Under the pieces are notes generated by a model. The model was not told the DNA's origin and did not search any database. It worked only from the letters and a program-made list of their open reading frames with translations. Below, one piece after another: positions 2 through 62,371 of a stretch of 64,000 bases of DNA. Source of the stretch: Bacteroides coprosuis DSM 18011 (GTDB taxonomy: Bacteria; Bacteroidota; Bacteroidia; Bacteroidales; Bacteroidaceae); assembly GCA_000212915.1 (NCBI GenBank), contig CM001167.1:2844780-2908779 (forward strand), written 5' to 3'. The translations under genes and the position numbers were made by a program. Position 1 is the stretch's first letter; every line of letters starts with the position of its first letter.

Positions 2-298
2 GTTGAATACATTGACAAGAACATACCAAGGGAAAATTTAGCTATTCTAAATACTTGCATTGGGTCGTCTATTCGTAATTATGAGAATTTTTATTTGGAA
101 TGGACCAGACTAGAGTCAATAATAAAATATTATGATGACTTATCACTGTTGAAAATATTATTTGATAAAATAAATATTAATGATTTTAAGCTTGATACCA
201 TATATCTCAAAACTAGACAGCGGTGCTTAATAGCTATATCAGGTGAAAATATTGCTCCTTTTGAGAAAACCATAAATATAAAATATCAAAAAATATGA
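2..298 (+). CDS. Sfp-type 4'-phosphopantetheinyl transferase, C-terminal part (truncated by window start)
   Basis: The frame is open from the window edge, so the true start lies upstream; 98 residues are visible. The stretch NYENFYLEWTRLESIIKYY aligns by eye with the Sfp family segment around W-S-M-K-E-S-x-I-K, keeping the W, the metal-binding-type Glu and the downstream Lys, while the Lys just before the Glu is Leu. A later segment (IYLKT...CLIAIS) fits the last strands of Sfp. Such enzymes load the phosphopantetheine arm onto carrier proteins, and an ACP gene lies 3.6 kb downstream. The stop overlaps the next start (ATGA at 295-298), which implies translational coupling. The family call rests on a short C-terminal match and context. 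Confidence 0.6.
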   Translation, partial: VEYIDKNIPRENLAILNTCIGSSIRNYENFYLEWTRLESIIKYYDDLSLLKILFDKININDFKLDTIYLKTRQRCLIAISGENIAPFEKTINIKYQKI

Positions 299-747
299 AA
301 TTTGACGAATTAAAACCTGGAGATTTATTACCACATAGTGACTTTATGTTGCTAATAGATAAGGTGATCTATACAGATTATGAGAAGTCCATTACGACTG
401 CCAAGACAGTGAAAAAGAACGATATATATTTTAAGGGGCATTTTTCTGGATATCCAATACTTCCTGGAGTTTTTATTATTGAAATGATGTTTCAATCATC
501 CGGGATACTAAATAGATTAATTCAAGAAAGAAAAGTAAATATTAATAATACATCAGAAAAAAAAATTGGTAAAGCAGTTAAAATAAAATCTGCAACATTT
601 AAAAAAGAAGTTTTTCCAAATTCGACAATAATAATAAAGTCAGAAAAAAAATTTGATCTAATGAACTTTTCAGAATATAAAGCGGTAGCATATGTTGATG
701 ATGAGGAGATTTGTCAAGCTGAAATAATATTATCAATACAACAATGA
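295..747 (+). CDS. FabZ-like (3R)-hydroxyacyl-ACP dehydratase (hotdog fold)
   Basis: This 150-residue protein has the usual FabZ length. The signature GHFSGYPILPGV with His49, followed by Glu63 in IIEMMFQ, matches the FabZ/FabA catalytic His and acidic residue. The expected role is removal of water from a 3-hydroxyacyl-ACP to give a trans-2-enoyl-ACP. It overlaps both neighbours by ATGA (295-298 and 744-747), so it belongs to the acyl-chain operon with the ketosynthases, ketoreductase and ACP. No enoyl reductase is visible in the window, so double bonds might be kept in the product. That last point is inference, because a housekeeping FabI could act. Confidence 0.85.
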   Translation: MKFDELKPGDLLPHSDFMLLIDKVIYTDYEKSITTAKTVKKNDIYFKGHFSGYPILPGVFIIEMMFQSSGILNRLIQERKVNINNTSEKKIGKAVKIKSATFKKEVFPNSTIIIKSEKKFDLMNFSEYKAVAYVDDEEICQAEIILSIQQ

Positions 748-1910
748 AAAAGAAAGAAATTTACATAACAGGTTTAGGTACTTATTCACCTGCTGGATAT
801 GGTATCAGAGATACCTGGGAAAATATTGAAGATGGTAAAACAGGTATAACTAGACACTCTAGTTGGCTCAATCAGAATATAGAGAGTCATTTATATGGAT
901 TACCACCCGAAATCTCTTTTGAGAAAGAAATAGAGTGGAATGAGTTTTCTAAACCAACTAAATACTCGATGTATGGATTATTAGCATGTAAGAAAGCTAT
1001 AGAGGATGCAAATATAAATTTAGACAAACATTATAATGGCATAGGTATGGTTATAGAAACCTCAATGGGTTCTGCCTTTTCTGTAGAAGAATATTTATAT
1101 GATTTGTATGAAAAAGGGATATCTAAGATAAGCCCTATGAAGTTTACAAAAACTGTAACAAATACAGCAATTGGAGATATATCTCGTTTTTTCAAATTAA
1201 ATGGTCCTAGTTCTCTTTTATTAAATGAATGCAGTATTAGTCATGGAATAGATTTAATAGAAAAAGGTGTGGCTGATATTATTATCTGTGGAGGTATAGA
1301 CCACTATACAGATTATTATCTACTAAGTGAACAAGAGACAGGAGGATTAGTTGATAATAAATTTAGTTTGGACGAATGCATTGAAAATTGTAATGATACG
1401 AATCAAAAAGTGCTAGGAGAGGGTGCCTGTTTTATTGTATTAGAAAGTGGTGAGAGCATAGAGAAAAGAAAAATAAAACCTTATGCTAAAGTTATAGATT
1501 ATAGCTCGTCATTCGATTCTGAAAATGTTTTAGATTCGACTAAAAGGTCAATTACTGCTCTTAGAAGAAATATTAATACGATTAGTAAATCCTTAGAAAA
1601 GGATTCAAACATACTATGGATAAGTTCATTCCTTACTGATATACAGAGAAATGAAAGTGAACCAGTAAGCTTATTAGATAAGTTGTCCAATAAAAAAGTA
1701 GAATATATAAATCATAAGTTTTTCACAGGGGACATGAAGTCTGCGAGTAGTTTATTTGGAGTTCTAATAGCTTCTAAATATTTACAAGAATCTATGTCTG
1801 CTCAAGAAGATAATACCATAAATAATCAAAATCTAGATACAGCAATAATCAATACAGTGCAAGAAGGGGGAGGAAATACTTTATTCTTATTAGAGAAATA
1901 CAATAATTAA
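744..1910 (+). CDS. Ketosynthase homologue lacking catalytic histidines (chain-length-factor-like)
   Basis: This 388-residue FabF/KAS-fold protein keeps the N-terminal ITGLG start, a Cys163 in NECSISHG at the nucleophile position, IIICGGID, and GEGACFIVLE. The two active-site His motifs are missing: where FabF has AHGT there is ISSFLTD, and where FabF has GHTLGAAG there is TGDMKSAS. This resembles the non-catalytic KS-beta partner of type II polyketide or aryl-polyene systems, although classical chain length factors replace the Cys (often by Gln) and this one retains it. A complete ketosynthase is encoded two genes downstream, so a KS/CLF-type heterodimer is likely. It overlaps the dehydratase gene by ATGA. 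Confidence 0.75.
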   Translation: MKKKEIYITGLGTYSPAGYGIRDTWENIEDGKTGITRHSSWLNQNIESHLYGLPPEISFEKEIEWNEFSKPTKYSMYGLLACKKAIEDANINLDKHYNGIGMVIETSMGSAFSVEEYLYDLYEKGISKISPMKFTKTVTNTAIGDISRFFKLNGPSSLLLNECSISHGIDLIEKGVADIIICGGIDHYTDYYLLSEQETGGLVDNKFSLDECIENCNDTNQKVLGEGACFIVLESGESIEKRKIKPYAKVIDYSSSFDSENVLDSTKRSITALRRNINTISKSLEKDSNILWISSFLTDIQRNESEPVSLLDKLSNKKVEYINHKFFTGDMKSASSLFGVLIASKYLQESMSAQEDNTINNQNLDTAIINTVQEGGGNTLFLLEKYNN

Positions 1911-1922
1911 TAATATATGCAT

Positions 1923-2660
1923 ATGAAAACGATATTTATAACGGGTGGATCGAGAGGTATAGGCAAAGAATTAGTTTACAAGTTTGGGAAAAGTGGGCAT
2001 AAAATTTTTTTTACTTATAACCATTCTGAGATAGAAGCAAAAAAAATAGTTGACTTTTTCCAAGAGCGTAGTAACAATAACGTAGCATGTTTTAAATGTG
2101 ATCTTTCTGTTGAAGATGATGTTAAAAGTTTATTTAAAAATAATAAAGATTTATTTTCAACTATTGATGTTCTAATTAATAATGCTGGAATAACCAATAG
2201 GGAAGCTCAACATTTTTTATTGACAAGAAGTAGAGACTGGTGGCTTGTGTTAAACAACAATTTAAATTCAGTATTGAATTGTACGCGAAACTCTCTACCA
2301 ATAATGATAAGAAATAAGAAAGGTCGTATTATAAATATAACTTCTTTATCCGGCATAAAAGGGAATCCTGGACAGTCTGCATATGCTGCATCAAAAGCAG
2401 CAATTGTAGCATTCTCTAAATCACTTTGTAAGGAATTACAAAATACTGGTATCTGTATCAATTGTGTTGCTCCTGGATTTATTGAGACAGATATGTCAAA
2501 AGATGCTCCTAAAAGTTATTCTGAAGCACGGCTTGATAATAGTATTCTTAAGAGGATGGGAACTACTGAAGAGGTTTGTAATGTTATCAACTATTTAGCT
2601 ATTGATGCTCCTGATTATTTAATAAATCAAGAGATTATTATTGACGGTGGTATTGCATAG
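1923..2660 (+). CDS. FabG-like 3-ketoacyl-ACP reductase (SDR family)
   Basis: This is a 245-residue classical short-chain dehydrogenase: TGGSRGIG at residues 7-14 (NADPH-binding glycine motif), NNAG at 86-89, and the catalytic triad Ser141, Tyr154 and Lys158 in SLSG...YAASK. The C-terminus (NQEIIIDGG) is the usual FabG tail. It would reduce the 3-keto group formed by the ketosynthase. An ATG at 1917 in the same frame would add Met-His, but 1923 gives the standard MKTIFITGG start. It lies 12 nt after the CLF-like gene and 15 nt before the ketosynthase gene. Confidence 0.9.
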   Translation: MKTIFITGGSRGIGKELVYKFGKSGHKIFFTYNHSEIEAKKIVDFFQERSNNNVACFKCDLSVEDDVKSLFKNNKDLFSTIDVLINNAGITNREAQHFLLTRSRDWWLVLNNNLNSVLNCTRNSLPIMIRNKKGRIINITSLSGIKGNPGQSAYAASKAAIVAFSKSLCKELQNTGICINCVAPGFIETDMSKDAPKSYSEARLDNSILKRMGTTEEVCNVINYLAIDAPDYLINQEIIIDGGIA

Positions 2661-2675
2661 TAAAAGTATTATAAA

Positions 2676-3887
2676 ATGAAGAAAAGAGTAGTTGTAACTG
2701 GTTTAGGGATAATTTCTTCTTTGGGCAACTCATTAGAAGAAACAAAAATATCTTTAGAAAAAAACATTCGTAATTATTCGACGATACCGGATGAGAGGTT
2801 TTCGACTGATCACAAGTTCTACAGAAATAATAAGGGTTTCAGAATTGATCAGGACTTGTATGAATGTTTAAAAAATGAAGAAGTCTCATTATTATATCCA
2901 TTAGCGTCTAAATCTATCAAAGAGGCGTTAGATGACAGTAGATTAAGTATGAGAAATTTACAAGAGAAAAGATCAGGCTTGTGCTTAGGAACGTCGGTTG
3001 GTGCAAGCTATGTATTAATAGAACGAATTAAAAATAAAATATTTAAGAACGAAGATAACTTTTCATATGGGAAATACACTACTCCAGCCATGATAGGAAA
3101 AATCGCTTCAGATTTTAGATTAAATGGGAGTGTATCAACGATTTCAACAGCTTGTGCCTCTGGAACAAACTCAATAGGTAGGGCATTTGATTTAATTCAA
3201 AATGGGAGAGAAGACATCATGATTTGTGGTGGTCTAGATATTTTCACAGAATTAACGTATTCTGGATTCAATTCGTTATTCGCCATATCTAAAGATGTCT
3301 GCAAACCTTTTTCTGAGCAACGTGATGGGATGTCTTTGGGCGACGCATGCGCAATATTAATTCTAGAAACCTATGATTCAGCAAAAGCTAGAGGTGCTAA
3401 TATTTATGGAGAAATTAAGAGTTATTATACCTTAAATGAAGCCTACCATCCAACAGCTCCCCATCCTGATGGTGTTTATGCTTATAGTTGTATGAAAAAT
3501 GCCCTTCATTATGGAAATATAGCAATTGAAGAAGTAGACTATATAAATGCGCATGGTACTGGCACTGAAAAAAATGACATATCAGAACTTAAAGGGATGG
3601 ATCTTTTACTTCAAAATAAAGAAGTTAAAACTTATGCAAATTCTACTAAAGGATTTACAGGTCACACATTAGGGGCTGCTGGCAGTATAGAAGCTATTAT
3701 TAGCTTACTATCAATAAAAAATAACACGCTATATGCATGTAATAACCAAAACAGCTATTTGCATTCAGATAAAATTAAGTTCGTAGAAAAGAATATAGAG
3801 AATATACATATTAACGCATTAATATCAAATTCTTTTGGATTTGGAGGTAATATGGCGAGCATAGTAATAAAAAACATTAATAATTAA
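2676..3887 (+). CDS. Beta-ketoacyl-ACP synthase (FabF-type KS, catalytic subunit)
   Basis: This 403-residue protein has the full FabF catalytic set: Cys160 in STACASGTNS, His293 in NAHGTGTEKND and His330 in KGFTGHTLGAAG. It performs decarboxylative Claisen condensation of malonyl-ACP with an acyl chain. The PFSEQRDG motif is standard, but the following segment reads LGDACAILILE instead of the usual GEGAG form. It sits between the ketoreductase and the ACP. With the histidine-less homologue at 744-1910 it probably forms a heterodimer dedicated to this pathway rather than being the housekeeping FabF. Confidence 0.92.
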   Translation: MKKRVVVTGLGIISSLGNSLEETKISLEKNIRNYSTIPDERFSTDHKFYRNNKGFRIDQDLYECLKNEEVSLLYPLASKSIKEALDDSRLSMRNLQEKRSGLCLGTSVGASYVLIERIKNKIFKNEDNFSYGKYTTPAMIGKIASDFRLNGSVSTISTACASGTNSIGRAFDLIQNGREDIMICGGLDIFTELTYSGFNSLFAISKDVCKPFSEQRDGMSLGDACAILILETYDSAKARGANIYGEIKSYYTLNEAYHPTAPHPDGVYAYSCMKNALHYGNIAIEEVDYINAHGTGTEKNDISELKGMDLLLQNKEVKTYANSTKGFTGHTLGAAGSIEAIISLLSIKNNTLYACNNQNSYLHSDKIKFVEKNIENIHINALISNSFGFGGNMASIVIKNINN

Positions 3888-3892
3888 GTTTT

Positions 3893-4165
3893 ATGAAAAT
3901 GGAAAAAGAAGAAGTAAGAGTGAAAATCAAAGAGATCATTATTGAAACGCTAAATCTGAATATTGATATAGCTGATATTGATGATAATGCACCGTTATTT
4001 GGGACGGATAAAGAACCTGGATTATTTAGTAATTCTCTCTGTGTTTTGGAAGTAACATCTGCATTGGTTGGAGAGTTTGATGTTGAACCTTCATCATTCA
4101 ATAGTAAAAGTTTTGAAACTATATCATCTTTGACTGATTGTATTTATGATCAAATAAAGGGATAA
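3893..4165 (+). CDS. Acyl carrier protein
   Basis: This 90-residue acidic protein fits the ACP fold. The phosphopantetheine Ser48 lies in FSNSLCVLEV, a variant of the usual D-S-L motif with Asn before the Ser, followed by an acidic helix and the typical FDV...F..I..L C-terminal pattern. It begins 5 nt after the ketosynthase and is the last acyl-chain gene before the peptide genes. It is probably the dedicated carrier for this cluster, activated by the phosphopantetheinyl transferase encoded at the window start. A start at the next in-frame ATG (3899) is also possible. Confidence 0.85.
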   Translation: MKMEKEEVRVKIKEIIIETLNLNIDIADIDDNAPLFGTDKEPGLFSNSLCVLEVTSALVGEFDVEPSSFNSKSFETISSLTDCIYDQIKG

Positions 4166-4205
4166 ATAGTAGTATATAAAGTATTAATCATTAAAACTAA
4201 AAATC

Positions 4206-4313
4206 ATGCTAGAAGAACTAAACATCATCGAACTTGAAGAACGTTTCGAACCAGTAATGGCAATGGCTGATGCTGAAGCGTCTATCCAAATAGGAGAAGT
4301 AGTAATCCTATAA
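4206..4313 (+). CDS. Candidate precursor peptide 1 (35 aa)
   Basis: This short ORF encodes 35 residues, starting MLEELNI, continuing with ELEERFEPVMA and ADAEAS, and ending IQIGEVVIL. The first 26 residues match the next two peptides except Ile8 (Val in the others) and Met20 (Ile). From residue 27 on the sequence is unique to this copy. A conserved acidic N-terminus with a variable hydrophobic C-terminus is the layout of a leader and core peptide. There is no Cys, so a lanthipeptide or thiazole product is unlikely. It lies 40 nt after the ACP gene. Translation is inferred from the reading frame kept across three copies. Confidence 0.75.
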   Translation: MLEELNIIELEERFEPVMAMADAEASIQIGEVVIL

Positions 4314-4356
4314 TAAAATACTACAAATATAGCATTAATCATTAAAACCAAAAATC

Positions 4357-4461
4357 ATGTTAGAAGAATTAAACATCGTCGAACTTGAAGAACGTTTCGA
4401 ACCAGTAATGGCAATAGCTGATGCCGAAGCGTCAGCTGAAATGGAAAGTATAGCTATTTAA
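4357..4461 (+). CDS. Candidate precursor peptide 2 (34 aa)
   Basis: This is the second of three tandem short genes. It starts MLEELNI, shares the ELEERFEPVMA and ADAEAS segments, and ends AEMESIAI. Residues 1-30 are identical to peptide 3, and only the last four residues differ (SIAI against RVIP). Several differences between the copies are silent (for example GCT/GCC, GAA/GAG), which suggests the leader is held by selection. It lies 43 nt after peptide 1, behind the same upstream repeat (ATTAATCATTAAAAC followed by AAAAATCATG). Its function is not known. Confidence 0.75.
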   Translation: MLEELNIVELEERFEPVMAIADAEASAEMESIAI

Positions 4462-4504
4462 TAAATAGCATACAAATAGTATGAATAATTTAAAACCAAA
4501 AATC

Positions 4505-4609
4505 ATGTTAGAAGAATTAAACATCGTCGAACTTGAAGAACGTTTCGAACCGGTAATGGCAATAGCTGATGCCGAAGCGTCAGCCGAGATGGAAAGAGTT
4601 ATTCCATAA
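4505..4609 (+). CDS. Candidate precursor peptide 3 (34 aa)
   Basis: This is the third tandem copy. It starts MLEELNI and ends AEMERVIP, with residues 1-30 identical to peptide 2. The next feature downstream is a strong hairpin (4633-4662), then the M50 protease gene. The small change confined to the last four residues, in a peptide otherwise constant, is what is expected if the C-terminus is the released or modified product. It could be a modified natural product or a linear signalling peptide; the sequence does not settle which. Confidence 0.75.
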   Translation: MLEELNIVELEERFEPVMAIADAEASAEMERVIP

Positions 4610-4632
4610 ATGGCACACTACTAGTATTAATC

Positions 4633-4662
4633 ATAAGCTGGGGGGGAAGCCCCCTAGCTTAT
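4633..4662 (+). terminator. Strong intercistronic hairpin between precursor genes and protease gene
   Basis: Bases 4633-4645 pair with 4650-4662 in a 13-bp stem (one G-T wobble, six G-C pairs in the upper half) closed by a 4-nt loop, GAAG. No T tract follows; the M50 start codon is only 12 nt downstream. It may act as a partial attenuator or as a 3' stabiliser that keeps the peptide mRNA more abundant than the downstream enzymes. It is unlikely to be a full intrinsic terminator. Confidence 0.6.
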
Positions 4663-4674
4663 AAATAAATAATC

Positions 4675-5889
4675 ATGGAAAATATATTAAGAAATTATGA
4701 TTACGAGGTTAAGTCTATGGGTAATAGTGAGCACCTCTTATTATATAAAGAGAAATATTTTAGAATAGGGAGTACTATTTATAATATCTTAAAGAAAGCA
4801 AAGGTATCAAAAACTATTGAAGACTTAGCGTATGAAATAGACATCAAGGAGTTTACTACGAGTAAGCTAATTGAAATTATAAATAATAATATTATACCAA
4901 TATTTAATAAGGAATATGGTAATACTCAAAATCAGTTCATTAAAAATTATTGGTGGACAGGAGAATTGTTAGCGTCAAAGTATACGACGTATTTAGCAAG
5001 GCCTTTTAAGTTTTTTTTTAGAGAGCTATTTCCTTATGTTTTTATAGTATTATTAGTCTTAAATGCTTTTATATTCTTTGGTAATACGAATACCATTTTC
5101 TCTAATACTCAAAATTGTGAGATCCTTCAGATTATAATAGTTTATTTTTTGTTGTTTATAATACTTCTAATTCATGAATTAGGTCATATTGCAGCGTCTG
5201 CGTCTGAAAATCTTAGCCCTAAAAGTATTGGGTTTGGCTTTTATTTTTTTATGCCTATGATGTTTGTGAATTTGACAGATGCTTGGGTATTATCTAAAAG
5301 TGCGAGGGTTAAAATAAATTTAGCGGGTATAACGATGCAAATGGTTATCAATATGGTCCTTTATATTTGCTTGTTATTTGTACCCAATATATTTATTATT
5401 GGCATAATTAATAAATTAATGCTTGTTAATACAATTATAATTTTATTAAACTTAATTCCCTTCTTTAAATTTGATGGATATTGGATATTATCTGATCTCT
5501 CAAGAATACCAAATTTATTAATTGAATCAAATAAAAGAGTAATGAGTTACTTTGTCAAGAGGAGTCCTTTTAAGCCCATTAATGAACTAAGTATTTCACA
5601 AACTCAAAATATCTTTTTAACTATATATACTGCTCTGAGATTAGTATTTCTAGTAATGATGATAACTGTTGTGTTTATGTTTATAATATACAATATTATA
5701 AAGTCTTCATACTTTATAATGTCGTTATCAGATATGGAACTTAGTGTAAATAGTGTAATTGATATTTTAAAGCATATTGTATTATTTGTATTTGTATTTA
5801 TTATATGCAAGAAATATATACTTGCTATTTATCAGTTAATACGGAAAAAACAAAAAAACAAGAGTAATGGATATCAATTTGTCAAGTAG
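4675..5889 (+). CDS. M50 family membrane metalloprotease with N-terminal PqqD-like region
   Basis: This 404-residue multi-pass membrane protein has the zinc motif HELGH (His167, Glu168, His171) inside a membrane segment and the second M50 motif FKFDG (Asp267-Gly268). Residues 1 to about 90 are soluble and resemble the winged-helix, PqqD-like domain in putative peptide zinc metalloproteases of export systems. That fold is also the RiPP recognition element that binds leader peptides. Further membrane segments lie at about 118-136, 150-172, 218-262 and 315-385. It lies directly downstream of the peptide genes, so cutting or exporting those peptides is the natural inference. Confidence 0.85.
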   Translation: MENILRNYDYEVKSMGNSEHLLLYKEKYFRIGSTIYNILKKAKVSKTIEDLAYEIDIKEFTTSKLIEIINNNIIPIFNKEYGNTQNQFIKNYWWTGELLASKYTTYLARPFKFFFRELFPYVFIVLLVLNAFIFFGNTNTIFSNTQNCEILQIIIVYFLLFIILLIHELGHIAASASENLSPKSIGFGFYFFMPMMFVNLTDAWVLSKSARVKINLAGITMQMVINMVLYICLLFVPNIFIIGIINKLMLVNTIIILLNLIPFFKFDGYWILSDLSRIPNLLIESNKRVMSYFVKRSPFKPINELSISQTQNIFLTIYTALRLVFLVMMITVVFMFIIYNIIKSSYFIMSLSDMELSVNSVIDILKHIVLFVFVFIICKKYILAIYQLIRKKQKNKSNGYQFVK

Positions 5890-6616
5890 AAATTTATCAG
5901 AAAAAATAATTTTTCTTAATCCTATGGGAGTGGATAAAAGTTTTTGGTTAAATAGTATTCCAAAAGAGTTATATGAAAAGTATGATGTAGTTCTCTTTGA
6001 TTATCCTGGCTTCAACTCTCAATATATTTATCAAAAAACTATATCTGAAACTGCTGATTATATTTTCGATAAATACATTAGAGGCATAGATGTTCCGATA
6101 CATCTATGTGGATATAGTTATGGAGGAATGGTGGCACAAGAGTTATTGAAGAGAGATCTGAAAGAATTAAAATCAGTTATTTTAATAGCTACTCAGAATA
6201 AGTTGACGACTTATGATAAAGAACTCAATAAGCTATTAATTAATCTTTTCAACATTGATCTTTTACTTTTTTGTCGTCTGTTAGTTTTATTATCATATAA
6301 TCCTTCTTTCGTAAATGAAAACAAGATGTTTTACCTTCAAGTTTTTTCAAGTATAAAATTATCGCCAGAAATTGCTGAATGTATTACTCAGCAGTTAGAC
6401 CAAATGAGACAAGTAGATGAGATAAAGTTCCCTGTTTTAGATTGTTCAGCTTTGTATCTTTATGGAGAATTTGATCGTATGGTAAAAGATAATACTGCAA
6501 ATGGAATTAATCAATTGTTGCCTAATATTGAAGTTGTCAAATTCTCTAACTCTTCGCATATGATAGATAGTAGACTTATATTCAAAGAAATAATCAAATT
6601 TTTAAATAAAATGTAA
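5867..6616 (+). CDS. Alpha/beta hydrolase (thioesterase-like)
   Basis: This 249-residue alpha/beta hydrolase has Ser84 in GYSYGG (the G-x-S-x-G nucleophile elbow), Asp203 in YGEFDRM and His231 in NSSHMI, a complete catalytic triad in the right order. A lid-like hydrophobic segment sits at about 125-165. The gene starts inside the last 23 nt of the M50 gene in another frame, so the two are probably translationally coupled. In this setting it could act as a type II thioesterase on the ACP or as an esterase on the product. The sequence does not identify the substrate. Confidence 0.75.
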   Translation: MDINLSSRNLSEKIIFLNPMGVDKSFWLNSIPKELYEKYDVVLFDYPGFNSQYIYQKTISETADYIFDKYIRGIDVPIHLCGYSYGGMVAQELLKRDLKELKSVILIATQNKLTTYDKELNKLLINLFNIDLLLFCRLLVLLSYNPSFVNENKMFYLQVFSSIKLSPEIAECITQQLDQMRQVDEIKFPVLDCSALYLYGEFDRMVKDNTANGINQLLPNIEVVKFSNSSHMIDSRLIFKEIIKFLNKM

Positions 6617-6620
6617 AAAC

Positions 6621-7745
6621 ATGATAAACAAAAGAGAAATAAGAAGAGAAATTCTAGAAATTCTAAATAGAGAACTACAAAAGCTGTTGAATGAAAAAAT
6701 CAGGCAGAATGATTTAAAAAATTTTCATTTCATGTCTGCAAATATAGCTAAATTAATTCCAGAAATAGATTTAAAAGATCATTGGGATATTTATAGGAAT
6801 TTGCAAAAAATAAAATACTTAGAATCTGAGGTGTCCTTTTTTAATACATTTGATTTAGATGTATTTTTTGAAAACTTGGCTTCTGAAAAGTTTTGTAAAA
6901 AAACACCTTCAATTTATATTTCATATCATACAGGAGCATATAGATCTCTAATGTTAGCTTTTGTTAGATTTAATATAGATGTTGCAATTATCGTTGATAC
7001 TACTATTTATCCATTGGAGAGGATAGAAGGTGAACTCTTAAAACATTTTCAATTTGCAAAAGAAATATTTAAAGATTCTAATTCTAATTTTAAAGTGATT
7101 TCAGCAAATAACAAAAATACTGTTATTGAATTAATGCAAATTATAAAAAATGGGTATTCATTACTTACGTATATTGATTGGAATTCTGGGTATAATAATG
7201 ATAAAGGGGGAAATATTGAAGTTGATTTTTTTAATAGTAAATTAAGTGTAAAGCAGAGTATATCTTATTTGTCATATTATACTAAGACTCCGATTATACC
7301 TTGTATATCCTATTATGATGAAGAATTTGAGCCTAAATGGAACATGTTAAAACCTATACTTCCTGATAATCACACAGGAGTTAAAGAATATGCTTTTATT
7401 GCAACACAGCTTCTCTATTCACATTTAGAAGATATAATTAGAGATAATTTTTCTCAATGGAGAGGTTGGTTTCATATTCATAAATCAATTGTTTTTGGAG
7501 AGTCATTGGAAAATAAACAATATGATTTTGACATCAATGGGAATTATAATTTAGCGGAGGATGTTGGAACTTTTACAATAATAGGAGAACATTTTATATT
7601 TAATAAGACCTCATATAAGTTAATGAAGCTACCAGACCCTTTGTTTAATAGCATATCTACTATGGAACTTTTAAATAAACAAGTAATTGAGGCTTCAATT
7701 ATTAAGCAGCTATACGAAAGCAAAATGCTATGTAAGACTATATAA
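6621..7745 (+). CDS. LpxL/HtrB-like acyltransferase homologue
   Basis: This 374-residue protein resembles lipid A/lysophospholipid acyltransferases. SYHTGAYRS (His103) occupies the place of the H-x4-(D/E) catalytic motif, and IDWNSGYNNDKGG...VDFF at about 186-204, followed by SYYTKTPIIPCISYY at about 218-232, follows the HtrB pattern D-x-x-G...PFF...TGAPVVP. The acidic partner of His103 is Arg108 here. There is no clear N-terminal membrane anchor. An acyl-ACP-using transferase would be the obvious enzyme to move the chain from the ACP onto the peptide or a lipid. The family call is by eye; the acceptor is inference. Confidence 0.6.
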   Translation: MINKREIRREILEILNRELQKLLNEKIRQNDLKNFHFMSANIAKLIPEIDLKDHWDIYRNLQKIKYLESEVSFFNTFDLDVFFENLASEKFCKKTPSIYISYHTGAYRSLMLAFVRFNIDVAIIVDTTIYPLERIEGELLKHFQFAKEIFKDSNSNFKVISANNKNTVIELMQIIKNGYSLLTYIDWNSGYNNDKGGNIEVDFFNSKLSVKQSISYLSYYTKTPIIPCISYYDEEFEPKWNMLKPILPDNHTGVKEYAFIATQLLYSHLEDIIRDNFSQWRGWFHIHKSIVFGESLENKQYDFDINGNYNLAEDVGTFTIIGEHFIFNKTSYKLMKLPDPLFNSISTMELLNKQVIEASIIKQLYESKMLCKTI

Positions 7746-7796
7746 ATAAATCATAAATAGTTATAAGATTATGTGTTTTATCAAACTTTTTTTAAT

Positions 7797-8501
7797 ATGA
7801 CTTATGGATGTGTTAAATATACTAAAAAAAAACGAGATGACGTAAAAATTATATCTATAATAACTTACGTTTTTATTGCTATATTTTTTAGATATATTTT
7901 TACAGTAACTAAACCTGTAATTATAATCAAGTTTGTAGAAGATGGATTACTCTACGATATACTAACTGGCATAGGCCCATTTCTATCAGTTATAATAGTC
8001 TCGATTATATTTAAAAGGAAACTATTGTATAGTAATTTTGGAACGTCAAAGTTTAAAACAGTAATATCAATTTTAGTTCCTTTATTATTATTTTTCTTAT
8101 ACGATTATTTTGGAGTAAGTGTAAACTACACAAATTTTCTTATTGTAATAGCCTGTATCATATATTCTTTTTTTGAGGAGTATGGATGGAGAGGCTATCT
8201 ACAGTCTGAACTGATAGGGTTATCTTTTTTTGTAAGAATATCACTAATTACAATTATTTGGTTTATATGGCATTTGAATTTTTCGCTTTCTCTAAGTAAT
8301 ATGTTTTTTTTATTAGTATTATTCTTTGCTTCATGGGGAATTGGTAAAATCGCAATTAAAACACAATCAATTATTGTTTGTGCTTGTTTTCATGCAGTTT
8401 ATAATATTGCTTTAAATATTGAATTAAATATACATACATTGTCAATATTATTGATATGTATTGTGAGCTGGTTTATAATTTGGTATAAATTACAAATATG
8501 A
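7797..8501 (+). CDS. CPBP family (CAAX-type) intramembrane metalloprotease
   Basis: This 234-residue protein is nearly all membrane segments. It has the three CPBP motifs: EEYGWR (Glu127, Glu128, Arg132), IWHLNF (His159) and ACFHAVYN (His199, Asn203). These proteases cut prenylated or leader-bearing peptides, or act in bacteriocin immunity and processing. I chose ATG 7797; the frame extends upstream to a GTG at 7773. A 9-codon ORF in another frame (ATG 7771, stop 7798-7800) overlaps the chosen start as ATGA. It is the last gene of the cluster and a second candidate protease or an immunity factor. Confidence 0.8.
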   Translation: MTYGCVKYTKKKRDDVKIISIITYVFIAIFFRYIFTVTKPVIIIKFVEDGLLYDILTGIGPFLSVIIVSIIFKRKLLYSNFGTSKFKTVISILVPLLLFFLYDYFGVSVNYTNFLIVIACIIYSFFEEYGWRGYLQSELIGLSFFVRISLITIIWFIWHLNFSLSLSNMFFLLVLFFASWGIGKIAIKTQSIIVCACFHAVYNIALNIELNIHTLSILLICIVSWFIIWYKLQI

Positions 8502-8551: not shown

Positions 8552-9367
8552 CTAGAATATTTGTTCTTTAAAGAGTTCTACATATTTTCTAGAGACAGGA
8601 ATATATTTTTTGTAGTTTTTTAAATATACTTGATATCCGTTTGAATTACCTTTGGCCGATTCTAACTTATTTAGATTTATAATAAAAGATCTGTGACAAC
8701 GAAATATATTGGGATGATTTGTTTCATTTTCTACTGCACTCATAGTTGTTCGTATTGTCTTATTAACTATTTCATTGTTATAAAAATAATAAATACTAAC
8801 ATTATTTTTGTCAGCTTCCGCAAAAAGGAAATCGTTTAGTTTTATTTTCACTCCTTTTTCTCTGATCAATTGATTAGATATAACAATATCTAAATCTTGT
8901 TCTTCTGTTTCTGTATCTACTAAGCAATTTAATTCTTTCTTTAGATAGAAATTATATTTTACAACTACTAGTATACTAGCAGGAATTATTCCTATAAAAA
9001 ATGTAAAATATATGATACGTAAGAACAGTAAAAAGTTGAAATGGTAATCTAATAAGACAATAGAAAAAAACAGATAGTTAATAATCGTAATTAACAGGAT
9101 TAGACTCACTATATAAAGAATTTCAATTAAAATAGTCCATTTTTTCACTAATATTCCCAAATGTTTTTTTAGGATAAAATTGAAAAACAGCATACTTATG
9201 AATGTATTGGCTCCAAATCCGAAAGCTACTCCAATCTTACTTCCTTTATATAAATCAAAACCGAATGGTTCAAATATAAAAATAAACATGACAACAACAA
9301 TGCTTACTATAAAGACGGTGCTGAGTTTATGTTTAATAAAAGGGTATTTTCTTTTTATAAATAACAT
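8552..9367 (-). CDS. Membrane-anchored LytTR-type DNA-binding regulator
   Basis: This 271-residue protein has four predicted membrane segments (about 18-36, 45-66, 79-108, 112-140), a linker, and a C-terminal LytTR domain (about 165-271) with IFRCHRSFIINLNK and IPVSRKYVELFKE, standard motifs of this fold. There is no receiver domain, so any signal would come through the membrane part. LytTR proteins often control bacteriocin and quorum-sensing peptide genes. The gene is convergent with the cluster, its stop about 50 nt from the end of the CPBP gene. Regulation of the operon is inferred from position only. Confidence 0.85.
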   Translation of the reverse strand: MLFIKRKYPFIKHKLSTVFIVSIVVVMFIFIFEPFGFDLYKGSKIGVAFGFGANTFISMLFFNFILKKHLGILVKKWTILIEILYIVSLILLITIINYLFFSIVLLDYHFNFLLFLRIIYFTFFIGIIPASILVVVKYNFYLKKELNCLVDTETEEQDLDIVISNQLIREKGVKIKLNDFLFAEADKNNVSIYYFYNNEIVNKTIRTTMSAVENETNHPNIFRCHRSFIINLNKLESAKGNSNGYQVYLKNYKKYIPVSRKYVELFKEQIF

Positions 9368-9658: not shown

Positions 9659-9955
9659 ATGAAACAAAGAAAAGTCTACGACCGAGAGTTTAAAGAAAAC
9701 GCAGTCAAGTTAAGTTATGAAAGAGATAATATGACTCATTTTGCTCGTGAGTTAGGCATCTCAGTCAAGCAACTATATAGTTGGCGAAGCCAATACAAGA
9801 TCAAAGGCTCAGAGAGCTTTCCAGGCAATGGTAATACAGCTGTCAATGATGATGCTAAAGCGTTAGTTCAGCTCAAGAAAGAATATGTCCGCCTACAGCA
9901 AGAACATGAAATTCTAAAAAAGGCTATGGGTATCATTTCCAGGAGCGATCTGTAA
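9659..9955 (+). CDS. IS3-family transposase OrfA (helix-turn-helix)
   Basis: This 98-residue protein starts MKQRKVYDREFKENAV, typical for IS3 OrfA. It has a helix-turn-helix (HFARELGISVKQLYSWRSQ, about 26-44) and a C-terminal leucine-rich coiled-coil region (VQLKKEYVRLQQEHEILKK) used for multimerisation. It appears intact, but the partner OrfB is broken, so no active OrfAB fusion can form. Its A-rich segment near 9915-9925 (attctaaaaaagg) is a possible programmed slippage site in the ancestral element. Confidence 0.9.
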   Translation: MKQRKVYDREFKENAVKLSYERDNMTHFARELGISVKQLYSWRSQYKIKGSESFPGNGNTAVNDDAKALVQLKKEYVRLQQEHEILKKAMGIISRSDL

Positions 9956-10835
9956 TCTATCGATTCATAAATGAACATCGGGCTAGATAGCGGATTGAGA
10001 TGATGTGTCGAGTTTTAAAAGTCTCTCGCAGTAGTTATTACTATTGGCTTAGAGAACCTAAAAGCGAACGTAAAGAGCAAGTGAAGGCCTTAAAAGAAAA
10101 GATCCAATCAGCTTATTTTAAAGCCAAAGGACGCTATTGAAGTCCACGTATCAAAGAAGAACTATGTAGGACAGGGACAGAGGTGTCAAGACCAACAGTA
10201 GCTAAATATATGAAACAGATGGATTTGAAGAGTAAACTAGCTCGAAAGTTCAGAGTAACTACAGACTCCAATCACAAGGAGCCTGTGGCTGATAATATCT
10301 TGAATCAAGACTTTTTTCTTTTTCACCGTTAAAAAAATGTGTTTCGGATATCACTTACATTCCAACAAAGAACGGATTTTTGTATCTGACAATTGTAATG
10401 GACTTGTTCAATCGTGATATTATAGGCTGGAATCTAAGCTCAAGCATGACAACAAAAGATACTGTGCTAGCAGCAATTAACAAGACTACCATGCAATATC
10501 GTTTTGACGATGGAATGGTGTTTCACTCAGACAGAGGAGCTCAGTATGCTTCTAAAGCGACTCGAAACACATTGAAATCGTATAATAGTGTTCAATCAAT
10601 GAGTAGAGTTAGGAACTGCTGGGATAATGCTGTGGCAGAGAGTTTCTTCAAATCACTTAAAACAGAATTGATTTATGGAGCTAAACTTGTTGGAGCAAAA
10701 CAGATGAGAAATAGAATTTTTGAATACATTGAAATTTGGTACAGAAAACAAAGAAGGCATTCATACCTAGACTATCAAACTATTGAAGAGTTTAACAACC
10801 AATACAGAAAACAGAATATTAACAATGTCGCTTAA
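9952..10835 (+). pseudogene. Broken IS3-family transposase OrfB (DDE integrase)
   Basis: The reading frame starting around 9952 contains in-frame stops TAG 9988-9990, TGA 10138-10140 and TAA 10330-10332, plus a frameshift near 10310-10350. The fragments still read as OrfB: SRSSYYYWLREP, then SPRIKEEL, SDITYIP in a shifted frame, and an intact C-terminal piece from 10380 (residues MDLFNRDIIGW, FHSDRGAQY with the second catalytic Asp, and NAVAESFFKSLKTE with the catalytic Glu). At least four lesions show the copy is old. Confidence 0.9.
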
Positions 10836-17914: not shown

Positions 17915-18502
17915 TTAAATGGTCTTTTTTAATTCTTGAAGTAAAAAAAGGACTTGTGGGAGGATTGCAATATTCCCATCGTTATAGACTAAGAAATCAG
18001 TCAACAAAAGTTTTTCTCTATCAGGAGTTTGAGCAGCAATCCTTTTTGCAATTAATTCTGCAGTGGATTTATCTCGTTTGATAGCCCGTTCCAAACGTAC
18101 CTCTTCACTAGCGTAAACCAGAATCGAATAATCTACTGCATTCTTGAACCCTGCCTCAAACAAAATAGCAGACTCTATTCCCACTATTGGACACTCTTGA
18201 TTTTTTTCGCACCATGTCAGAAAATCCTCTTTTACTCTTGGATGTACTATATCATTGATCTCTTTGGTATGCTCAGGTTTGGCAAATAGGTAATTAGCTA
18301 ATAATTTCTTATTTAACTGACCATCCAAATAAACTTGATTCCCCAACAAAGCTATCAGCGATTTTTTTATATGAGGATCTGAAACCATTAATTTCTTAGC
18401 TTCATCATCAGCTATGTAAATAGGTATGTCCAACACTTGCAGTATTCGAGAGACTACTGATTTTCCACTACCTATACCTCCTGTTATTCCTATTTTAATC
18501 AT
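17915..18502 (-). CDS. coaE: Dephospho-CoA kinase
   Basis: This 195-residue kinase starts MIKIGITGGIGSGKS, containing the P-loop, and has the expected IADDEAKK, HPRVK and ESAILFEAGF motifs of CoaE. It performs the last step of coenzyme A synthesis, ATP-dependent phosphorylation of dephospho-CoA. The frame extends eight codons upstream to 18526, but the start at 18502 fits the family and overlaps the YbbR-like stop by 8 nt. It forms an operon with yajC and the ybbR-like gene, an arrangement seen in Bacteroidales. Confidence 0.95.
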   Translation of the reverse strand: MIKIGITGGIGSGKSVVSRILQVLDIPIYIADDEAKKLMVSDPHIKKSLIALLGNQVYLDGQLNKKLLANYLFAKPEHTKEINDIVHPRVKEDFLTWCEKNQECPIVGIESAILFEAGFKNAVDYSILVYASEEVRLERAIKRDKSTAELIAKRIAAQTPDREKLLLTDFLVYNDGNIAILPQVLFLLQELKKTI

Positions 18503-19514
18503 TTGTTTGAGTAGTTTTCTTCTCAATTAAAAAATCTACATTCGTGGGCCAAACTCTAACTTTTTTAGCTTGGCTAGGTGCTTTGGTTATTTTTATTTGA
18601 TAGGTATCTCCCTCTAACGACCGTAAATCCCAATAATCAATATTAATAGCAAAATCTGCTTCAGAGATAGTATTAAACGAACGAGTACCAATTTGAAAGG
18701 TCACTTCAACATAAGATGGGAATGTTCTTAACATTTTATCTTGAGGGAAATTAATTCCACGTAAAGGAACTTTTACTGTTTTCTCAGTTACTATATCTGT
18801 AGGTAAATGCAGTATTACATAATTGGGAACAAACTTCACACCTTTCATATATTGCAAAGGGATTTTAATAGTAGTAGAGTCTGACAAGCCTAGCAGCTCA
18901 GTTTCTTCAGTAAAAGCAGTATCAACCTGATTTAATAAAGCCGAAGGAGCATAAATAGAGACTGAATCAGGTTCAAAAATAGTGTCCGTAACAAAATACT
19001 GCTGACTTGCTTCTATCTTTCCTCGAAAAGACACAGGAATACGTTTTCCTTTACCTTTTGCAAATATATATTCTAAAGAATCAGGTTGAATAGAAAGTAG
19101 CTTACTAGATACATTAAACTTTGACAAAATCTGCTTCTCAAGTACCACTGCTGAAAACTGGATATGATTCTGCTTTTGTTTTGCTAACTGTGAATAGTCC
19201 AACTCTATAGGAGGAAGTTTTCTGCTTAACTTATAATTCATCAAAACGGTGCCTTTATCACGAACACGTACAGATAAAGCACTAACAGGATCATTGGTTA
19301 ATACAATATTATCTGGCAAATTATTCAGATGCAATGGAATAGAAAAATCGGTATCATATTCTTCATTTAGGGTTTGTAAGAACCAAAAGCCTGAGGCAAT
19401 GAAGAAGAAGAATAAAAAAATAAAGAACTCTCTACTTTTTGGTTTAAGTAGAAAGTCCTTTATCTGTCTAAATATCTGTAGAAAGGTCTTTTTTATGTTC
19501 TGAGTATTGAACAT
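18495..19514 (-). CDS. YbbR-like domain protein
   Basis: This 339-residue protein has a basic N-terminus, one membrane segment (EFFIFLFFFFIASGFWFLQ, about 29-47) and an extracytoplasmic part with YbbR-like beta repeats (for example PDNIVLTNDPVSALSVRVRD and FPQDKMLRTFPSYVEVTFQI). YbbR proteins are known regulators of diadenylate cyclase in Firmicutes; in Bacteroidetes the partner is not adjacent here. It lies 17 nt after yajC and overlaps coaE. Confidence 0.8.
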   Translation of the reverse strand: MFNTQNIKKTFLQIFRQIKDFLLKPKSREFFIFLFFFFIASGFWFLQTLNEEYDTDFSIPLHLNNLPDNIVLTNDPVSALSVRVRDKGTVLMNYKLSRKLPPIELDYSQLAKQKQNHIQFSAVVLEKQILSKFNVSSKLLSIQPDSLEYIFAKGKGKRIPVSFRGKIEASQQYFVTDTIFEPDSVSIYAPSALLNQVDTAFTEETELLGLSDSTTIKIPLQYMKGVKFVPNYVILHLPTDIVTEKTVKVPLRGINFPQDKMLRTFPSYVEVTFQIGTRSFNTISEADFAINIDYWDLRSLEGDTYQIKITKAPSQAKKVRVWPTNVDFLIEKKTTQTND

Positions 19515-62014: not shown

Positions 62015-62371
62015 TTATCTAGCGCTTAGGAAGTCTATCAACTGATCTTTCTTTAATTGATAGAGATAAGTTACTATTCTTTCCTCATAGTCAACCTGAT
62101 TTTCAAAATGAGTGGCCAACTGAATAATAATCTTACGAATTGTACGATTTCCATCAATTAATTTCCATACTTCAGAACCATGAACATCTAACGGAACTTT
62201 AATCTCAGGAGATATTTTCTTGGGTAAAAAGTACTTATTCACCCATTTTGATTTGAATCTCAAAATACCCAACCGCACCCTTCCATCATCCATTATATAT
62301 GTAGAGATGTGACTTCTACGAATAGGAGTCACATCTAATATATTTATCTTATTATTACTCTTGCCAAACAT
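62015..62371 (-). CDS. PqqD-like small protein
   Basis: This 118-residue protein has a C-terminal PqqD-like winged helix (GSEVWKLIDGNRTIRKIIIQL, then YEERIVTYLYQLKKDQLIDF), after a basic N-terminal part (RRSHISTYIMDDGRV). PqqD folds usually recognise peptide leaders, but no peptide gene or modifying enzyme is next to it here. It overlaps the MFS gene stop by one base (TAATG), so the two are translationally coupled. Function unknown. Confidence 0.75.
   Translation of the reverse strand: MFGKSNNKINILDVTPIRRSHISTYIMDDGRVRLGILRFKSKWVNKYFLPKKISPEIKVPLDVHGSEVWKLIDGNRTIRKIIIQLATHFENQVDYEERIVTYLYQLKKDQLIDFLSAR

Follow-up and report, generated by a model that had tools for sequence, protein, structure and literature searches.

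The subject of this report is a gene cluster at the start of a 64,000-nucleotide stretch of the Bacteroides coprosuis DSM 18011 genome (contig CM001167.1, positions 2,844,780 to 2,908,779), which as a whole is called the window. The cluster joins genes for building an acyl chain to three small peptide genes, two intramembrane proteases and an acyltransferase of LpxL-like type (Table 1). All operon genes in the window lie on the + strand and either overlap or are separated by short gaps, and their Pfam and NCBIfam matches bear out the first-pass annotation, which had placed the named genes in one co-directional operon. The pathway is not complete in the window. The operon starts approximately 2.1 kb further upstream (L004 16674-19078), where a 138-aa protein, an AMP-dependent ligase and most of the 4'-phosphopantetheinyl transferase (PPTase) are encoded.

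Table 1. Features of the operon and its immediate surroundings (window coordinates unless marked L004).
Feature	Position	Strand	Basis or remark
138-aa protein	First operon gene, upstream of window		No Pfam or NCBIfam match
AMP-dependent ligase, 462 aa	Upstream of window		Pfam AMP-binding 6.9e-22
4'-Phosphopantetheinyl transferase, 200-214 aa	3' end 2..298; full gene L004 18434 or 18476 to 19078	+	
FabZ-type 3-hydroxyacyl-ACP dehydratase	295..747	+	Pfam FabA 2.3e-19
Chain-length-factor-like ketosynthase homologue	744..1910	+	Alignment; relatives in B. graminisolvens 2e-153, Hp32 8e-103
FabG-type ketoreductase	1917..2660	+	Pfam adh_short 1.2e-53; NCBIfam 3oxo_ACP_reduc 1.9e-68, below cut-off
FabF-type ketosynthase	2676..3887	+	Pfam ketoacyl-synt N and C; Cys-His-Lys-His intact (alignment)
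Acyl carrier protein	3893..4165	+	NSL at phosphopantetheine site
Precursor peptide 1	4206..4313	+	MLEELNIIELEERFEPVMAMADAEAS + tail IQIGEVVIL
Precursor peptide 2	4357..4461	+	Leader near-identical; tail AEMESIAI
Precursor peptide 3	4505..4609	+	Leader near-identical; tail AEMERVIP
13-pair hairpin	4633..4662	+	Between last precursor and M50 gene
M50 site-2-type intramembrane protease	4675..5889	+	Pfam 5.6e-5, 23.0 bits, below cut-off 27.2
RRE-like N-terminal domain of M50 protein	Residues 1-78, about 4675-4908	+	Structure match
Alpha/beta hydrolase	5867..6616	+	Pfam Abhydrolase_1 7.4e-11, Thioesterase 8.8e-7
LpxL/PatA-fold acyltransferase	6621..7745	+	Model pLDDT 89.6
C-terminal winged domain of acyltransferase	About 7539-7742 (residues 307-374)	+	RRE-like, tentative
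CPBP/Rce1-type intramembrane protease	7773..8501	+	Pfam Rce1-like 1.4e-11
Membrane LytTR regulator	8552..9367	-	Pfam LytTR 4.3e-19; directly downstream of operon

As had been predicted, the ketosynthase (KS) of the operon stands beside a homologue of chain-length-factor (CLF) type that lacks both active-site histidines in the alignment. Among the four CLFs aligned, the window protein retains a Cys near the active-site position, unlike the others. Together, KS and CLF account for two of the three ketoacyl-synthase matches in the whole genome. The acyl carrier protein (ACP) has no Pfam match and an NCBIfam match (PRK09184, 2.9e-6) below cut-off, and has clear relatives in both other complete clusters (L089, 3e-39; L090, 4e-30). 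The PPTase is matched weakly (NCBIfam AusB PPTase 5.7e-9 and Pfam ACPS 0.083, both below cut-off) and has a relative in L090 at 4e-21, while relatives of the dehydratase (DH) are present in L021, L024, L026, L034, L076, L089, L090 and L091. The ligase matches both aryl and fatty acid ligase models, with NCBIfam scores far below the cut-offs. A cispentacin-type pathway was considered and rejected, the AmcH, AmcF, AmcE and AmcB models matching the ligase, KS, CLF, DH and ACP, all far below their cut-offs. The alpha/beta hydrolase is possibly an editing or releasing thioesterase. The CPBP gene may begin at ATG 7797 instead of 7773, and its relatives occupy the same position in L019 and L020.

The three window peptides have in common MLEELNI(I/V)ELEERFEPVMA(M/I)ADAEAS, with variation confined to the last 8-9 residues and C-termini of VVIL, SIAI and RVIP. 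By reading, each of the nine complete peptides (three in the window, two in L019, three in L020 and one in L090) has a Ser immediately ahead of its variable tail. For the third peptide, ATG 4505 is the more likely start over 4481 because it is followed by the conserved leader. Over 16 leader codons, comparison of the window with two Bacteroides graminisolvens peptides gives 5-6 synonymous and 0-1 non-synonymous differences. This dominance of synonymous change argues that the small open reading frames (ORFs) are translated and constrained, as the first-pass annotation had supposed, and by the same comparison their leaders are evidently under purifying selection. A conserved leader, a variable core and coding constraint, the features of a precursor of the ribosomally synthesized and post-translationally modified peptide (RiPP) type, are all found here, with tandem copies in the window, L019 and L020. 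Two tandem peptides of identical protein sequence also lie upstream of the acyltransferase in L018 (8871-9237, - strand).

The stretch that holds the hairpin downstream of the last precursor (4610-4675) folds at -24.1 kcal/mol (z -4.27). Stable folds (z -3.67 or lower) were obtained in six of the seven precursor-protease gaps folded, the folding covering part of the gap only in L022, L034 and L050. The exception is L034, which has no hairpin (z 0.48) and where the stretch runs into another peptide gene. As a control, the ACP-to-peptide gap was folded too and gave no strong hairpin. The hairpin fits a precursor expressed above its enzymes and may act as an expression-ratio element.

The claim that acyl-chain and peptide genes form one unit was upheld in other genomes. 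B. graminisolvens and Flavobacteriaceae Hp32 have the same set of genes, each time split across two contig ends whose halves presumably adjoin. One B. graminisolvens half (L019) runs from the contig edge through peptides, M50, hydrolase, acyltransferase and CPBP to LytTR. The second, found at a contig edge by a genome profile search, has a TPR-DUF2141-TonB unit divergent from the 138-aa homologue, which is followed by ligase, PPTase/dehydratase (there read as one ORF), CLF, ketoreductase (KR), KS and ACP, and it ends in MLEELNIVELEERFEPVVAA. The Hp32 halves (L090 and L020) carry the same set with two ACPs, and their TonB-DUF2141-TPR genes are co-directional with the operon. Chain genes, an acyltransferase and ELE-leader peptides occur together in other arrangements in L021/L092, L024 (Saprospiraceae) and L034 (Chitinophagales); L021/L092 and L034 have M50 and arginase as well. 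L021/L092, from a metagenome-assembled genome labelled Thalassovita, is suspected to be really a Bacteroidota contig. Chain genes and an acyltransferase are likewise found in L026, L076 and L091, with LanB nearby in L026 and L076 (also in L021) and a radical-SAM gene in L091. The L091 locus (5818-7434) is a second acyltransferase cluster of Arcicella, with chain genes, small ORFs and radical SAM, besides the M50/arginase one in L022.

The M50 protease is the component for which a link to peptide leaders is clearest in structure. The HExxH and C-terminal DG motifs are invariant in all 11 M50 proteins aligned, and the membrane part of the model (pLDDT 80.6) matches SpoIVFB (Z 10.1) and site-2 protease (Z 9.4). 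Foldseek returned 3b4r at probability 1.00, and also TruD, 4v1u and ThcOx. Residues 1-78 match a sactipeptide enzyme (5wgg, which we take to be CteB; Z 7.8), TbiB1 with leader (6.9), TigE (6.6) and PqqD (6.5), followed by heterocyclases (5.5-6.0), MccB (5.7), McbBCD (5.5) and ThcOx (4.8). Response-regulator winged domains score on these residues too (NsrR, Z 5.7; ArlR, 5.4). In hhalign, the M50 N-terminal profile matched a PqqD profile of 30 sequences, from which eight opposite-strand readings had been left out, at 1.4e-4 (probability 52), compared with 0.021-0.33 for control segments. The M50 protein is thus predicted from its modelled fold to carry a leader-recognition domain like the RiPP recognition element (RRE). 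The first-pass annotation had invoked a PqqD-like leader-binding domain; the RRE-like fold is present, and its place is corrected to the M50 protein itself. M50 proteins of this type also occur in a YcaO-like cluster (L009 9321-13349, - strand) and by a terpenoid-like gene (L008 7736-10824), both assigned by eye.

The acyltransferase has a clear fold. Across most of residues 17-334, its model matches PatA (Z 21.1, root-mean-square deviation (rmsd) 3.0, 234 residues aligned) and LpxM (Z 20.4, rmsd 4.0, 259 aligned). A search of PDB sequences with the acyltransferase profile matched two designed proteins only. The HX4(D/E) motif is catalytic in LpxL/LpxM/HtrB acyltransferases, with E127 the residue named for LpxM. 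In an alignment of 41 family members (the window protein and 40 of the 60 acyltransferase ORFs in 58 loci, 20 near-copies having been left out), His103, Gly105, Asp186, Trp280 and Trp283 are invariant, and the LpxM-type acid at position 108 is found in 0 of 41, its place taken by Arg in 38 and by Gln, Tyr and Lys in one each. Membership among the lipid A acyltransferases was therefore rejected: the fold is present, the HX4(D/E) motif is not. The family shares fold and invariant His with LpxL/LpxM and mycobacterial PatA, and differs from them in the replaced acid, an extra C-terminal winged domain and the RiPP context.

The 58 loci come from a two-short-pattern scan with four LpxL-like proteins over 84,980 species genomes, which is not a census. 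A small peptide gene lies near the acyltransferase or in the same cluster in 53 of them. Tandem small ORFs set the loci only weakly apart from control windows (12 of 58 compared with 8 of 92), so a leader-motif count was used instead. A leader-pattern small ORF, always on the same strand, was found within 5 kb of the acyltransferase in 43 of 58 loci, 30 of the near ORFs having the ELE pattern and 39 M[KN]KxFxI. The latter occurs in none of 4553 far small ORFs, and the 15 far ORFs with the ELE pattern are all peptides of the L021, L028 and L050 clusters; both patterns were composed after some peptides had been seen. The other ten loci were added by reading, without control (L021, L029, L031, L033, L040, L041, L046, L049, L059 and L067). 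Five loci (L026, L044, L062, L073 and L076) showed no peptide gene; three of these (L026, L062 and L073) sit on short contigs or break off near the gene or cluster. The family with small peptide genes spans about a dozen named genera, and at least one non-Bacteroidota isolate, Thalassotalea loyana (L070), has a member. This family-wide linkage supports acyl transfer to a peptide, which the first-pass annotation had proposed.

A second modification may be associated with some members. In 6 of the 12 M50 loci (L022, L034, L050, L070, L071 and L092), M50 adjoins a protein of the arginase family that is extended at its N-terminus by about 100 residues; these proteins were scanned for their location beside M50 genes. 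The ORF maps of the other six (window, L019, L020, L028, L069 and L074) contain no arginase-like gene. Precursors at the arginase loci have an Arg-Cys motif in five of six cases and Lys-Cys in L034 (by reading), and these proteins of Bacteroidota and Thalassotalea are candidate peptide arginases. In phaeornamide, an arginase makes ornithine that is then acylated (PMC9505594, PMC12703449). By analogy, the arginase-linked loci suggest side-chain acylation of ornithine. Maturases of grasp-with-spasm type, below model cut-offs, were found in L028 and L050. That arginases, such maturases and LanB, all enzyme types known from RiPPs, occur at these loci favours a RiPP role for the family.

The acyltransferase and the chain genes are connected in phylogeny as well as in gene order. 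Chain-gene loci contributed 11 of the 42 acyltransferases in a maximum-likelihood tree, and these 11 lie on one side of a branch with support of 90/87. The chain-gene label changes once on the tree, and none of 500 label shuffles was as low. L070 has a KS, an ACP-like ORF and a KR 5-9 kb downstream; counting it as chain-linked gives two changes, still reached by none of 500. Long branches are those of L067, L070, L044, L071 and one L034 row. This grouping suggests an enzyme adapted to a special chain, and is in itself no proof of acyl transfer to the peptide.

We consider it probable that the operon is a dedicated lipidated-RiPP pathway, in which a chain of its own is built and moved to a ribosomal peptide whose leader is then removed. 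The gene set, its conservation, the coding constraint and the conserved catalytic residues are read directly and the folds by prediction; from these we infer the chemical steps, the acceptor, the identity of the chain and the biological role, as follows. A starter acid would be loaded by the upstream AMP-ligase onto the PPTase-activated ACP, and extended by the KS, the His-less CLF, KR and DH using host malonyl-ACP. The operon is without an enoyl reductase, and the chain should therefore be (poly)unsaturated. The RRE-like domain of the M50 protein, and probably a comparable one in the LpxL-like enzyme, would hold the ELEERFE leader. The LpxL-like enzyme would take the chain from ACP and attach it to the peptide, with the Ser preceding the variable tail or a new N-terminus as the acceptor. 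The M50 protease would cut the leader in the membrane, with the CPBP protease possibly making a second cut or trimming. The product would be handled at the outer membrane by the TonB/DUF2141/TPR unit, with the LytTR protein as regulator.

Several observations weigh against this proposal. The residues of the acyltransferase winged domain (307-374) match MccB residues 1-82 at Z 4.6 (rmsd 3.2, 66 residues). The N-terminal MccB region is a peptide clamp, and the match as such speaks for the proposal, but a Z of this size is possible by chance. MccB is the sole RRE-like row among 50 structure rows, at rank 48, with no PqqD-family chain among them. Five rows of ribosomal oxygenases (NO66, MINA53) rank above it, at Z 5.6-6.2 and with ranges 1 to 373 or 374. 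A weak hhalign match of the C-terminus to PqqD (E 0.003, probability 10; controls 0.021 and 0.064) adds to a tentative, weak call that this domain is RRE-like. Neither an acyltransferase of the AT type nor an enoyl reductase is found among the operon genes. Extension upstream, which had been proposed for finding exporters, uncovered the operon start and the TonB/DUF2141/TPR unit, and none of the genes looked at was recognisable as an exporter. Nor is an acceptor evident, the window peptides having no Lys or Cys and an Arg in the third tail only. In L076 and L026, chain genes and an acyltransferase are present and the sequence covered shows no precursor. Finally, the first-pass annotation had held that acyl and peptide genes unlinked in relatives would speak against a joint pathway, and this is seen in part, most loci having peptide and acyltransferase without chain genes. 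Our own reading of the last point is that the chain genes are an optional supply module.

The rival that survives best accepts the same chemistry and changes the role. The product may be a lipopeptide pheromone, a short acylated signal that the membrane LytTR protein senses, and not an antimicrobial or a compound of the cell surface. This seems unlikely to us, if worth serious thought: a LytTR membrane protein adjoins the operon in the window and has a counterpart in the corresponding position in B. graminisolvens (L019 4062-4916, 3e-102), others adjoin the acyltransferase in L017 and L018, and the tails are very short and differ between tandem copies. LytTR membrane proteins are, on the other hand, common regulators in Bacteroidota, tandem variant cores are a usual feature of antimicrobials as well, and no LytTR was found on the 5.5-kb Hp32 contig L020. 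The window protein is a possible cluster regulator.

Alternatively, the operon may belong to an aryl-polyene or flexirubin-like pigment or lipid pathway, in which the LpxL-like enzyme acylates a membrane lipid and the peptides are an independent RiPP or signal. The E. coli aryl-polyene cluster has the same enzyme types, namely KS, CLF, KR, DH, ACP, acyl-ACP synthetase and lysophospholipid acyltransferase, and no peptide gene is listed for such clusters in the portion available (PMC8253772). KS, CLF, KR, DH, ACP, an acid-activating ligase and a lysophospholipid-type acyltransferase are common to aryl polyene/flexirubin clusters and our operon, and no precursor was seen in the 21 kb of L076. L076 does have an adjacent LanB, however, and most family members lie near small peptide genes with no chain genes at all. 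The window peptides stand directly between ACP and M50, and both junctions are also present in B. graminisolvens and Hp32, on separate contig ends. Unlike aryl polyene/flexirubin clusters, the operon includes peptides and proteases, and no RND/LolA-type transport genes were recognised among the genes looked at. With the tentatively RRE-like winged domain of the acyltransferase also counting against it, we regard a pigment or lipid pathway as quite improbable.

It is also conceivable, at long odds, that primary metabolism supplies ordinary fatty acids for the acylation of the peptides, the KS/CLF set making a separate product. The frequency of acyltransferase loci without chain genes would agree with this, and the acyl group of the selidamide phaeornamide does come from primary metabolism (PMC9505594). 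The grouping of KS/CLF-linked acyltransferases in the tree and the conserved operon layout speak against it. That two unrelated operons adjoin by chance is barely credible and largely refuted by conserved order, for although this is an accessory locus with mobile genes nearby and an acyltransferase unmatched in either of the two other same-genus genomes listed, the genes overlap and their order is the same in Bacteroidaceae and Flavobacteriaceae.

Ribosomal lipopeptides (selidamides, lipolanthines, goadvionins and DAG-RiPPs) and KS/CLF pigments are already known, and the favoured pathway of peptide lipidation must be set beside them. Lipolanthine and goadvionin enzymology is different from the type II KS/CLF synthesis and LpxL-like transfer of the window, and macrocycle-forming lanthionine/avionin enzymes are part of those pathways. 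No such enzymes were found among the operon genes scanned; LanB is present in other loci. Lipolanthines and goadvionins are likewise RiPP-polyketide hybrids (PMC9505594). The selidamides phaeornamide and kamptornamide are ribosomal lipopeptides too, and the arginase-linked members of the LpxL-like family resemble phaeornamide. Selidamides use a GNAT enzyme, with an NHLP-family precursor in phaeornamide, whereas the window has a PatA/LpxM-fold enzyme, ELE leaders, an M50 protease, its own chain synthesis, no arginase in the operon and no peptide Lys for the acylation of Lys/Orn side chains that marks selidamides. Selidamide membership was rejected on the acyltransferase fold. DAG-RiPPs (dyb cluster), reported in work that includes Bacteroidota, are lipidated at an N-terminal Cys by the general lipoprotein pathway (PMC12636315), but the window peptides have no Cys.

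Daptides are the nearest tested precedent for the leader and the protease. Their ELExMEAP leader is bound by an RRE, their precursors are in tandem, and their leader peptidase MpaP is an RRE-fused M50 protein that works as an RRE-dependent intramembrane enzyme (PMC10036551). An RRE-fused M50 peptidase, an ELE-type leader and tandem precursors are thus shared with the window. In contrast to daptides, the operon genes scanned include no aminotransferase or Fe-dependent alcohol dehydrogenase, the short-chain dehydrogenase/reductase is FabG-like, and the peptides lack a C-terminal Thr. Membership was rejected on the missing Thr and aminotransferase. The window M50 does match the NCBIfam model daptide_HExxH (1.1e-28), at a score far under the cut-off (100.5 against 300).

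The surroundings of the operon suggest a mobile history. GC content in the window is 0.27-0.32 up to 10 kb, rises to 0.36-0.37 in the 6 kb that follow and is again 0.32-0.33 further on. IS3-like transposase ORFs, read by eye, adjoin the cluster at 9659-10835, and an RteC gene lies on its other side (L004 12065-12763). In class-level searches the CLF was matched in 1 of 395 genomes at E <= 1e-30, the own genome. The M50 search at order level gave 3 of 247, namely the own genome and the RiPP-like contexts of L008 and L009. The LpxL-like protein was the most useful query, with 2 of 101 family genomes and 3 of 395 phylum genomes at 1e-15, the own genome included in both. The cluster was likely acquired horizontally. 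Divergent from the operon on its upstream side are a TonB-dependent receptor, a DUF2141 protein and a TPR-like protein (L004 12810-16064, - strand), a unit that perhaps serves uptake, surface display or immunity. TonB-receptor-like and DUF2141-like (and TPR-like) genes also accompany chain genes at L089 1887-5147, L090 27-2651, L076 11322-14231 and L091 13648-16753 (the last two by eye). Elsewhere in the window, a stand-alone PqqD-like protein (62015-62371, - strand; Pfam PqqD 8.3e-6) lies beside an MFS-like gene, with no RiPP context among the ORFs listed.

The locus is real and conserved, and on its sequence would represent a new form of lipidated-RiPP biosynthesis. No description of an LpxL/PatA-type or KS/CLF-fed RiPP acyltransferase was found in searches of an open-licence paper library, which omits most subscription papers, and the terms acyltransferase, ketosynthase and graminisolvens are absent from the text of a Bacteroidales RiPP survey (PMC10352776). 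The LpxL-like proteins are apparently an unrecognised enzyme family in a RiPP context, with peptide acylation as their putative chemistry. We lean, by a little, toward a broader reading, in which they would be widespread RiPP N-/O-acyltransferases that contain a leader-binding domain of their own and pair interchangeably with M50, arginase, grasp-with-spasm or lanthionine chemistry throughout Bacteroidota; the window clade would be KS/CLF-fed, with a dedicated polyunsaturated chain and two intramembrane proteases that excise the peptide in the membrane. An acyltransferase family unrelated to GNAT and lying near precursor-like genes would give a genome-mining handle for ribosomal lipopeptides, and the LpxL-like family would be a source of peptide-lipidating enzymes. 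To this the window clade brings a chain-building set of its own, for which the type strain Bacteroides graminisolvens DSM 19988, as a carrier of the gene set, is a direct test case.

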